64,000 bases of DNA, taken from positions 1 to 64,000 of the forward strand of contig MIBJ01000022.1 of NCBI GenBank assembly GCA_001829495.1, in the 5' to 3' direction. The notes under the pieces are model-generated. The model saw only the letters and a list, made by a program, of their open reading frames with translations, was not told where the DNA came from and did not search any database. Position numbers and translations under genes: made by a program. The stretch's first letter is position 1; each line of letters starts with the position of its first letter. This DNA is from Spirochaetes bacterium RBG_16_49_21. Lineage in GTDB: Bacteria; Spirochaetota; UBA4802; UBA5550. Below are positions 3,901 to 9,820 of the stretch, in pieces.

Positions 3901-3964
3901 CGAAGCCGCCCGCTTCTGTTAGGGAGGGGTTTAAACCCCTCCCTAACAGAAGCGGGCGGCTTCG
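3901..3964. terminator. 64-bp perfect palindrome downstream of cfpA
   Basis: Each of the 32 bases in the left half pairs with its partner on the right, with no spacer. The centre is GAGGGGTTTAAACCCCTC. It begins 27 bp past the cfpA stop and is probably a strong two-way terminator. A second palindrome of the same length with the same centre lies at 8191-8254. Confidence 0.8.
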
Positions 3965-6068: not shown

Positions 6069-7169
6069 TCATGATGGAAAATATTTAAAGGTGAAATTCC
6101 CTACTTTAAAAATATCCCCGTTTTGCAGAAGGCCGTCAGACTCCCTGTTCACCATCTCAATCTTCGCGCTCTTGTTTCCGGCAAGCTGCATCCGCACCGC
6201 ACCGCCCTGGCGTATCGCCCTGATGCTGAAGGGATTTTTGATATTTATGTCGCGGATATTAATAGCGCATTCAAACCCCTTGCCGATCTTCGCCTCCTTT
6301 GCAGACCTCCGCGACAGGTCAAAATGGTAAATGTACGGATCTACTATCTCATTATTCCAGTATTCCAGGCGTCCGGAAACCACAAGCCCGGATAACTTCT
6401 TGATGATGAAGATTATCGCCAAAACCAGAACAATGGAGCCCGCGGCTATCAGCAAGGGGATAAGGATGGGTCTGCTTGGGGATTCCTGTATCTTTTCGGC
6501 AGCGATCAACGCCTTCTTTCCTTTTTCCGGCTCACTGGTCTCAATGATCTTTACCTTGTCGGTTATCCGCGCCAGAGTTTTTCCCAGCTTTTTAGCTGCT
6601 TCGCTCCCTTTCATGTTGCTGAAACTGAGGACATACACCCAGAGGTTTGTTTTTTTGCCGTACCGGGCGGCAAAATCCTGGAGGTTGAACCGGTTCGCTT
6701 CTCCGGGAGGCGGATCGTCGATCGCATCCGTCATGATCACGATTTCGGTATTCCTGCCGTCTTCTTCTTTCTCAAGTTTTTCCGCCGCTTGAAAGACCTT
6801 GTATATCATTTTGTAGGTATAGGTCCATAGCCCGGCTGCTTCGGTCATGGTGATGTATTTTTTCAGAATATCGCGGTCATTGTCGTCGTCGACAAGCACC
6901 GTCGGGTATATTCTCGCGTCAGTGTCAAAGGTGACAAACGTCACACGGTCCCCGTCTTCGACGCTCTGATCAATATACTCCATGATGCTTTTCTTCACCT
7001 TGCCGAGGATGTCCCTTCCCCCCGCCTGACCGACCATGCTCATTGAGGTATCGAGCACGAGTACGATATTTTTGCTCTTGCGCGCAAAAAGGTATCCGGG
7101 GACAAACGCAAATTGTATAACCAGAATAGCGGATAATAAGAGTACGATAGGCATGAATTTAGTTCTCAA
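6069..7169 (-). CDS. von Willebrand factor A membrane protein with C-terminal FHA-like domain
   Basis: 366 aa. An N-terminal signal anchor (about residues 6-28) is followed by a VWA domain with an intact MIDAS motif DTSMSM (D40, S42, S44) and a later 'IVIMTDAIDD' strand. A second membrane span lies at about 235-257 (ILIPLLIAAGSIVLVLAIIF). The last 100 residues form a beta-rich domain ending 'NGDIFKVGNFTFKYFP', which looks like an FHA or FHA-like fold. The expected topology is a periplasmic metal-dependent binding domain with a cytoplasmic C-terminal domain, similar to BatA-like or signalling VWA proteins. No MoxR ATPase or Bat genes are adjacent. The partner is unknown. Confidence 0.75.
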   Translation of the reverse strand: MRTKFMPIVLLLSAILVIQFAFVPGYLFARKSKNIVLVLDTSMSMVGQAGGRDILGKVKKSIMEYIDQSVEDGDRVTFVTFDTDARIYPTVLVDDDNDRDILKKYITMTEAAGLWTYTYKMIYKVFQAAEKLEKEEDGRNTEIVIMTDAIDDPPPGEANRFNLQDFAARYGKKTNLWVYVLSFSNMKGSEAAKKLGKTLARITDKVKIIETSEPEKGKKALIAAEKIQESPSRPILIPLLIAAGSIVLVLAIIFIIKKLSGLVVSGRLEYWNNEIVDPYIYHFDLSRRSAKEAKIGKGFECAINIRDINIKNPFSIRAIRQGGAVRMQLAGNKSAKIEMVNRESDGLLQNGDIFKVGNFTFKYFPS

Positions 7170-7399: not shown

Positions 7400-8125
7400 T
7401 TAATATTCATTATAAATAACATCTTTTTTCACGTATTTCCGAAAATCAATACTGATCATCCTCTCCATATCGAGATATTCGCTCATCAGTATGTAAAACC
7501 ACATGGCGGTGTCATCCATGGTTTCCAGGGCGATAAAACTCCTTTTTTCACGCCAGTTCTTCACTACAACCCCCTTTTGTAAAACCATGAGGATATCCAT
7601 TTCATACCGGTACTCAATATTCTTCGAAAGATAATATTCAATTATATCATTCTTCAGCTCATCAAATTTATATTTCGTATTAGCGGCGATCACAAACGAA
7701 GGCAGATGTATATTATTCGGCTCCTCGGCGTCGGTGAACATGTTGAGCTTTTTTGCCGTCGCAATTATATCCAGAATCCCGGTCAGGGAATCCCTGGTCA
7801 AATCCTGAACGATATGATATAATCCGTAAACGAGCTCGCAGGGAACATATCCTCCCATAAGGCTGATGAGATCGGGACAGTATTTCCGGTATACCACAAG
7901 GTCGACGCCCTCCGGGGAAAATCCGCCGGAATCAACCGGCCGGACGGTGTCTATCGCGAGATTGAAGGGAATTATCGGAGTAAGCGCGTCCTTCAACATC
8001 AGGGCATCGATTTTTCTTTTTGCTGCGCTCTTCTTGCCTCCTTTTTTTATTGAGGCCTTTGCAGCGGTTTTACCCTTTATCACTATACCTTTTTCAAAAT
8101 TCTTGAAATAGCTGTCTATCATCAT
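7400..8125 (-). CDS. hypothetical protein, possibly a degenerate DUF6602/nuclease-like fold
   Basis: 241 aa, not confidently recognised. GAGG lies 5 nt before the ATG at 8125 (ATG-ATG-ATA). The ORF-track start is an upstream GTG that overlaps this ribosome site, so the ATG is preferred. A basic Lys/Ala-rich stretch (KKGGKKSAAKRK) at about residues 25-40 looks like a linker or nucleic-acid-binding tail. The segment 'GVDLVVYRKYCPDLIS...VPCELVYGLYHIVQDLTRD' has the layout of the DUF6602 restriction-nuclease-like family (a D near VVY, then E...V), but the catalytic E-x-K is not kept. It could instead be an unrelated spirochaete protein. Confidence 0.6.
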   Translation of the reverse strand: MMIDSYFKNFEKGIVIKGKTAAKASIKKGGKKSAAKRKIDALMLKDALTPIIPFNLAIDTVRPVDSGGFSPEGVDLVVYRKYCPDLISLMGGYVPCELVYGLYHIVQDLTRDSLTGILDIIATAKKLNMFTDAEEPNNIHLPSFVIAANTKYKFDELKNDIIEYYLSKNIEYRYEMDILMVLQKGVVVKNWREKRSFIALETMDDTAMWFYILMSEYLDMERMISIDFRKYVKKDVIYNEY

Positions 8126-8190
8126 CAACACCTCATCTTTTTAATATGCCGGGGAAACTAATGCATAGATTCATATTGATGTCAAATAAT

Positions 8191-8254
8191 AAAATAAGGG
8201 CGCTTTCGTTAACGAGGGGTTTAAACCCCTCGTTAACGAAAGCGCCCTTATTTT
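8191..8254. terminator. 64-bp perfect palindrome
   Basis: All 32 base pairs match with no loop. The centre is GAGGGGTTTAAACCCCTC, the same core as the palindrome at 3901-3964; the outer arms differ. It lies upstream of the 241-aa gene and beyond the structured RNA at 8309-8479, where it could stop minus-strand readthrough from enolase. Confidence 0.8.
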
Positions 8255-8308
8255 TCACATTATCGGGAAAAAAAACTTGATAAATTACTTTATGGTAATT
8301 TCATGAGA

Positions 8309-8479
8309 TCCGCCTGCGCTGTTGGTGATAGGAATGTATATTTTTTGAGCCTAAAGCTTTTTACGGGATCCCAATATTTGGCTGCAATGGTCACGCCCCT
8401 TACGGGGAAGACCTGATCATCCGTGCGGGAACCCACCTGGTAATCAGGTTCAAAAAGCTTTCCTACACGGCAGCGCGGA
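8309..8479. ncRNA. structured RNA candidate, possibly 6S-like; strand uncertain
   Basis: There is no gene between 8255 and 8485, but about 171 bp fold into one long rod. Terminal arms GCGCTG/CAGCGC and TAGGAA/TTCCTA are joined by G-T wobbles. Inside are AAAGCTTTTT/AAAAAGCTTT, a side hairpin ACCTG/CAGGT next to the conserved-looking GGGAACCCACC, and an apical hairpin CCCC-TTAC-GGGG closed by GGTC/GACC. A closing stem, a bubble with a small hairpin in the 3' arm and an apical stem, at about 170-180 nt, is the layout of 6S RNA, which binds housekeeping RNA polymerase. Read that way it is on the plus strand. However, a weak AT hairpin followed by eight T residues lies beyond the minus-strand 3' end, which favours minus. 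A structured enolase 3' UTR is the main alternative. Confidence 0.5.
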
Positions 8480-8485
8480 CATTAT

Positions 8486-9760
8486 TTATTTGAACGGGTT
8501 CCCAAAAACCGACGACTTGCCGAGCTCGAATTCGATCTCCATCAGACGGTTGTATTTTGCGATACGCTCGCTCCGGCATGCAGACCCGGTCTTGATCTGC
8601 CCGCCGCCCATGGCCACGGCGAAGTCGGCCATAAAGGTGTCCTCGGTTTCGCCGGATCGATGGGAAATGACAAATCCCCACCCCGCTTTTCTGCAGAGAT
8701 TGATCGCCTCAATGGTCTCCGTGACCGTACCGATCTGGTTGAGCTTTATGAGCACCGCGTTGGATGATTTTTCCACAATCCCCCGGGCTATAAACCTGGT
8801 ATTAGTAACATATAAGTCATCGCCGACTATCTGAATTTTATCACCGAGGGCGGCAGTATGCTTCTTAAAGCCTTCCCAATCGTTTTCGGCGAGCCCGTCC
8901 TCTATCGATACGATATGATATTTCTCAACCCACCTTTTGTAGAGATCGGTCATCTCCGCGCTGTTCTTATTGCCCTGGCCGGACTTTGCGAGTGCGTATT
9001 TATTATTTTCATAAAAGGAGCTTGCTGCCGGATCGAGGGCGAGGGCCACGTCCCTGCCCGGTTCATAACCGGCGGATTTGATCGCCTCGATGATTACCTC
9101 GCATGCCTCGTCGTTGCTCTTGAGATTCGGCGCGAACCCGCCCTCGTCGCCGACCCCGGTGGAATATCCTTTTTTGCCGAGTATTTTCCTGAGTGCATGG
9201 AAGGTCTCGGCTCCATAACGGAGCGCTTCACGGAACGAAGGCGCGCCTATGGGCATAACCATGAACTCCTGAAAATCGACGCTGTTCTCCGCGTGCTTGC
9301 CGCCGTTAAGAATGTTCATCATGGGGACCGGAATGCGGCAGGAGCCGGGTCCTCCAAGATAGGCGTACAGGGGAACATCGGCCGTTATCGCCGCAGCCTT
9401 GGCCGCCGCCATGGACACGCCCAGGATGGCGTTGGCGCCGAGCTTCCCCTTGTTGGGAGTCCCGTCGAGATCGATGAGAAGGCGGTCTATGTCCGCCTGT
9501 TTCGACGGGTCCATACCGGCGACCTCCGGGGCTATGATCGTATTGACGTTCGAGACCGCCTTTAATACGCCCTTTCCCTCATAGCGTTTTTTGTCGCCGT
9601 CGCGGAGCTCCACCGCTTCGTTCTCGCCGGTGGACGCGCCTGAGGGGACCGATGCCGACACGCTGACCCCGTTATCAAGCGCCATGAACACCCGCACGGT
9701 CGGGTTGCCCCGGGAATCAAGAATCTCCATTGCATTGATCGATTTGATTCTGTTCTTCAT
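8486..9760 (-). CDS. eno: enolase
   Basis: 424 aa from the second of two adjacent ATGs, 6 nt after AAGGAG; the ORF-track start is 20 codons further upstream. Enolase converts 2-phosphoglycerate to PEP in glycolysis. All standard motifs are present: the N-terminal '[10 protein letters not shown]', the flexible loop '[15 protein letters not shown]', the metal and catalytic residues in '[11 protein letters not shown]' and 'GDDLYVTN', the catalytic Lys in 'LIKLNQIGT', and the signature '[12 protein letters not shown]'. Length is normal. It is a single gene next to the 3' end of the dcw cluster, and TTGACA at 9815-9820 and TATAAT at 9782-9787 (minus strand, not ideally spaced) mark its promoter region. 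Confidence 0.97.
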
Positions 9761-9820
9761 CATACTCTCCTTATATCGATGATTATAGAGTATGTTTGAG
9801 CTACCGCTAAAGCCTGTCAA

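Follow-up and report, generated by a model that had tools for sequence, protein, structure and literature searches.

The window, a 64,000-nt stretch of DNA from Spirochaetes bacterium RBG_16_49_21, carries between a gene for a 243-amino-acid (243-aa) protein and an enolase gene an RNA gene whose parts and surroundings are collected in Table 1. FlaA homologues are found in the same genome, in agreement with a spirochaete. A first-pass annotation, made from the letters alone, had described positions 8309-8479 as a gene-free, rod-folding 171-bp region next to enolase, possibly encoding 6S RNA, with conflicting evidence on strand, and had named a covariance-model search against Rfam RF00013 and comparative folding as checks. 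We found no credible gene inside 8309-8479, and the flanking coding sequences, both on the - strand, end (enolase, 8486) and begin (243-aa gene, 8131) outside it, confirming that the region is gene-free.

Table 1 Features of the 6S RNA locus (window coordinates).
Feature	Position	Strand	Basis or remark
243-aa protein gene	7400-8131	-	divergent from 6S; starts at 8131
Putative promoter	8277-8304	+	-35-like TTGATA 8277-8282, weak -10 TTTCAT 8299-8304, A/T tract just upstream
6S RNA gene (ssrS)	8312-8485	+	RF00013 match 8308-8485; probable start from conserved G before CCTG
Closing stem P1, 5' arm	8314-8326	+	pairs with 8467-8478; Rfam alignment, covariation
Helix P2, 5' strand (UUUUUUGAGCC)	8341-8351	+	expected product-RNA template; Rfam alignment, covariation
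Likeliest product-RNA start, template U	8352	+	candidate; pRNA 5'-AGGCUCAAAAAAUA
Predicted central bubble collapse helix, 5'-bubble strand AAAGCUUUUU	8353-8362	+	pairs with 8452-8461
Upper arm, including apical hairpin 8396-8407	8365-8434	+	two-sided covariation, helices 4-6
3'-bubble hairpin ACCUG-GUAAU-CAGGU	8435-8449	+	three pairs compete with P2
Helix P2, 3' strand (GGUUCAAAAAG)	8447-8457	+	common to P2, 3'-bubble hairpin and collapse helix
Predicted collapse helix, 3' strand AAAAAGCUUU	8452-8461	+
Closing stem P1, 3' arm, within CACGGCAGCGCGG	8467-8478	+	Rfam alignment, covariation
Enolase	8486-9763	-	convergent with 6S; stops at 8486

The locus is a 6S RNA gene

The small RNA 6S is known to park RNA polymerase once growth stops. 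In a scan of the whole window against Rfam, the 6S model RF00013 matched positions 8308-8485 of the + strand over its full length (model positions 1-187 of 187) with 77.1 bits (E = 1.8e-13), compared with a gathering score of 46.4 bits, and the - strand had no 6S match. Three matches in the window exceeded their thresholds: two tRNAs and the 6S RNA. The guess of a 6S RNA was therefore right, as was the region assigned to it, although the gene extends slightly beyond 8309-8479 (Rfam, 8308-8485; likely RNA start, 8312). An RF00013 search of the 3.8 Mb assembly returned this single match and no second copy. Among 59 relatives, 48 had a 6S match, above cut-off in 46; across the phylum the match was present in at least 64 of 197 genomes, a lower bound, since this survey used a stricter filter and missed one genome (G006) that was positive in the search of relatives.

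The conserved GAGCC, CCCACCUGG and CACGGCA motifs fit the 6S model end to end. Together with the fact that RF00013 was the sole non-tRNA family above cut-off in the window, they argue against another polymerase-binding RNA of the Ms1 kind, or a cis-regulatory rod serving the neighbouring genes. Ms1 is structurally related to 6S RNA and also binds polymerase, and it is described in Actinobacteria (PMC9130861); we attach next to no credence to either reading.

Covariation settles the structure and the strand

Consistently with the end-to-end rod of the first-pass annotation, the + strand of 8309-8479 folded at -67.1 kcal/mol (dinucleotide shuffles -49.5 ± 3.8; z = -4.6), and none of 200 shuffles folded as well. 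The - strand folded less well (-59.7, z = -3.0), and an RNA from that strand was rejected on this weaker fold and its missing 6S match. We then used the Rfam structure, mapped onto the window sequence, as the tested structure in a MAFFT alignment built without a structure reference from 40 sequences of the same order. Under this structure 83.4% of cells were paired and 28 of the 50 pairs showed two-sided changes, with a covariation score of 0.317 against a shuffle mean of 0.166; structures slid by 1 to 3 columns scored 0.068-0.113. Comparative folding was thus in favour of the structure, and RNAalifold independently recovered the closing stem, the upper arm, the apical hairpin and the 3'-bubble hairpin. 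Helix 1 (P1) had 6 invariant pairs and 7 with two-sided changes, and two-sided covariation was also seen in helices 4-6. The tetraloop-type apical hairpin noted earlier is present (CCCC-UUAC-GGGG) and has covarying pairs in relatives. This strong two-sided covariation settles both structure and strand, resolving the earlier conflict in favour of a + strand gene convergent with enolase.

RNA ends and putative promoter

In the 40 members of the order, the sequence upstream of the gene has a conserved TTG box, mostly 35 to 38 bases before an invariant CCTG and preceded by an A/T tract, and a T-rich stretch at the expected -10 location. The base directly 5' of CCTG is G in 88% of the aligned genes, and bases farther upstream are poorly conserved. 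Because this G is conserved and conservation is lost just upstream of it, the alignment suggests that the RNA starts at G8312, and we infer a housekeeping-type promoter from the sequence at 8277-8282 and 8299-8304. A simple consensus scan upstream of 6S returned no promoter, the -10 element being weak.

The 3' end of the RNA probably falls within the T-rich stretch that follows GCGG, at about 8480-8488. In most relatives the gene closes with GCGGGT and then runs into T-rich sequence. The window has an imperfect T-tract behind the closing stem (ACATTATTTATTT), which makes the 3' end uncertain there, and this weaker 3' version, GCGGACATTATTTATTT, overlaps the last enolase codons on the opposite strand. 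Judging from the sequence, the closing stem and the T run may serve as a terminator.

A 6S pseudogene, left by a rearrangement that put enolase at the 3' end, would agree with the occurrence of the enolase junction in this genome only, with the non-standard outer closing-stem pairs of the window and with its GCGGAC in place of the GCGGGT found in nearly all relatives. Against this, the core positions are all intact, as are the two competing folds, and the genome has no other 6S; the chance of a pseudogene is in our estimate negligible.

Enolase is an incidental neighbour

The placement next to enolase, noted in the first-pass annotation, is true of this genome but unique to it among the loci examined: no other locus of 30 had enolase within 1.5 kb of 6S, and in other members of the genus the two genes lie on different contigs. 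We therefore rejected enolase linkage as a functional clue. The adjacency is incidental and says nothing about function, which corrects the impression of an enolase-6S linkage. Since the window enolase is 86% identical to one copy in one genus member (which also has a 61% copy), only 60-63% identical to the enolases of the remaining genus members and 75-81% identical to those of metagenome-assembled genomes (MAGs) carrying the labels of various other phyla, it appears to be of a transferred type that landed beside 6S.

From the enolase stop to the palindrome at 8191-8254 (window 8254-8486), the - strand showed no strong terminator, so that read-through from enolase would give an RNA antisense to the whole 6S gene, apparently in this species only. 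The same lack of any other strong terminator, and an enolase stop only one base off the 6S match, would suit a rod that belongs to enolase, as its 3' untranslated region or terminator, rather than to a separate RNA gene. This is very improbable given the poorer fold of the - strand and its lack of a 6S match, the retention of the rod in relatives without enolase within 1.5 kb, and the conserved promoter-like sequence at the 5' end of the rod on the + strand.

The region 8308-8485 is thus a canonical 6S RNA gene of Spirochaetes bacterium RBG_16_49_21, an ordinary occurrence of this family. A single ssrS gene (8312 to about 8485, + strand), encoding a rod that mimics an open promoter and is expected to release polymerase through product RNA (pRNA) synthesis, is almost certainly the best explanation of the locus, and its annotation adds a global polymerase regulator to a spirochaete-like lineage.

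The conserved neighbour of 6S is the divergent 243-aa gene, not enolase; it lies upstream of 6S in 16 loci, all apparently from the family of the window. The protein had no Pfam match, and a gene for a VWA-domain protein (window 6069-7169) adjoins it in many loci. Downstream of 6S, 13 loci share a homologous gene that is encoded on the opposite strand; its product in the one member scanned contains TPP-enzyme and 4Fe-4S domains, as pyruvate:ferredoxin oxidoreductase does in its C-terminal part. The convergent downstream gene elsewhere in the family is thus pyruvate:ferredoxin-oxidoreductase-like, and the window has enolase in its place.

Positions 8191-8254 are a perfect palindrome of 64 bp, made of two 32-nt arms with no spacer; flanked by T-rich sequence on either side, it resembles a terminator on both strands. 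About ten related copies occur elsewhere in the genome, one of them at window 3911-3954, and this dispersed element may terminate transcription in both directions, separating enolase/6S from the 243-aa gene. Rfam also gave sub-threshold matches to it (miRNAs, BTnc060 and others), which we rejected as hits that a perfect hairpin yields by chance.

Predicted refolding upon pRNA synthesis

We take U8352 to be the pRNA start, as a pyrimidine template beside GAGCC, like that of E. coli 6S. The pRNA-bound state was represented by barring the template bases from U8352 from pairing, in folding of the naked RNA with polymerase outside the model. Between the free and the pRNA-bound state, the predicted probability of helix P2 fell from 0.99 to 0, that of the 3'-bubble hairpin rose from 0.01 to 0.97 and that of the collapse helix rose from 0 to about 0.8; a 6-nt pRNA from 8352 downward already sufficed for the predicted switch. 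The bubble-side hairpin proposed in the first-pass annotation (ACCUG/CAGGU) is conserved, but is predicted to be part of an alternative state and not of the ground-state rod, as it wins over P2 only once the 5' bubble strand is taken up. It occurs widely across the order, with 90% of cells paired in the 40 sequences, and in 30 of the 40 it is predicted to be closed when pRNA is bound.

The collapse helix comprises 10 perfect pairs, starts at the base adjoining the presumed pRNA start, and was matched in stability by none of 200 shuffles. Each of the six genus members has such a helix, of 8 to 10 bp, which 0 to 1.5% of shuffles equalled in stability, and members of another family have one with different sequence (AAGCGAAA/UUUCGCUU and similar). 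As an order-wide feature it was rejected, reaching p < 0.05 in 12 of 40 rows and missing in many. Given its absence from much of the order, the helix may be a trait of the genus, and in part of the family, that has no function. A local 5'-bubble hairpin replacing it was rejected as a general feature, being strong in two loci only, L002 (1501-1683) and L012 (1501-1682). These two have, instead of the collapse helix, a perfect local hairpin of 8-9 bp (arms UGCAGUAUU/AAUACUGCA and UGUCGUAU/AUACGACA); as it spans the 5' strand of P2, their free RNA is predicted to disfavour P2.

By analogy with known 6S RNAs, we infer polymerase binding, pRNA synthesis and release for the RNA of the window. Its rod would mimic an open promoter and, when growth is slow or stationary, would bind the housekeeping sigma holoenzyme and keep it inactive. 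When nucleotides return, polymerase would start pRNA at about U8352 and proceed toward the RNA 5' end through P2. The 3'-bubble hairpin would take up the GGU end of the freed P2 3' strand, and the 5' bubble strand would pair with its AAAAAG end to give the 10-bp collapse helix, abutting the pRNA hybrid; this double capture would close the bubble and release polymerase.

Comparison with known 6S RNAs

6S RNA has already been reported in spirochaetes: Barrick et al. (2005) predicted Bb6S of Borrelia burgdorferi, and RNA-seq has detected it (PMC6041397). Likened by description, not by sequence, Bb6S and the RNA of the window are both spirochaete 6S RNAs but come from different lineages. With the RF00013 family (SsrS) the window shares the full-length match, the rod with its central bubble, P2, the GAGCC and CACGGCA elements, the covariation and the single copy per genome. 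Nothing excludes membership, and the window sequence is specific to its order.

In the published release model, polymerase copies a short pRNA from the bubble and unwinds P2, and the RNA refolds (PMC8876501). In E. coli the freed P2 3' strand is predicted to join a 9-bp hairpin in the 3' bubble upon pRNA synthesis, and in B. subtilis and A. aeolicus it pairs with the 5' bubble, forming a "central bubble collapse helix" (PMC8876501), an exact phrase that our limited literature search found in this source only. We put forward tentatively, as a possibility that we would not yet favour, that in the 6S RNA of this genus pRNA synthesis would free both together, the E. coli-type hairpin and a long B. 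subtilis-type collapse helix abutting the pRNA hybrid, and that the collapse helix has been retained, re-invented or lost in related families. What is new is the prediction that both release elements occur together in one natural 6S RNA, for which a limited literature search found no earlier description. If true, both known release modes would occur in one natural RNA, and relatives would provide a natural RNA series in which to ask whether the 3'-bubble hairpin or the collapse helix drives 6S release, a question until now divided between E. coli and B. subtilis.

With the gamma-proteobacterial type of E. coli, the window shares a 3'-bubble hairpin that competes for the P2 3' strand (PMC8876501), of 5 bp rather than 9 bp, and it differs in having in addition a predicted strong collapse helix. 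With B. subtilis 6S-1 and A. aeolicus 6S, it shares a collapse helix between the 5' bubble and the P2 3' strand (PMC8876501), which in the window is 10 bp long and without G-U pairs. Its 3'-bubble hairpin is predicted to close only after pRNA binding, whereas in B. subtilis a hairpin is already formed in the free RNA.
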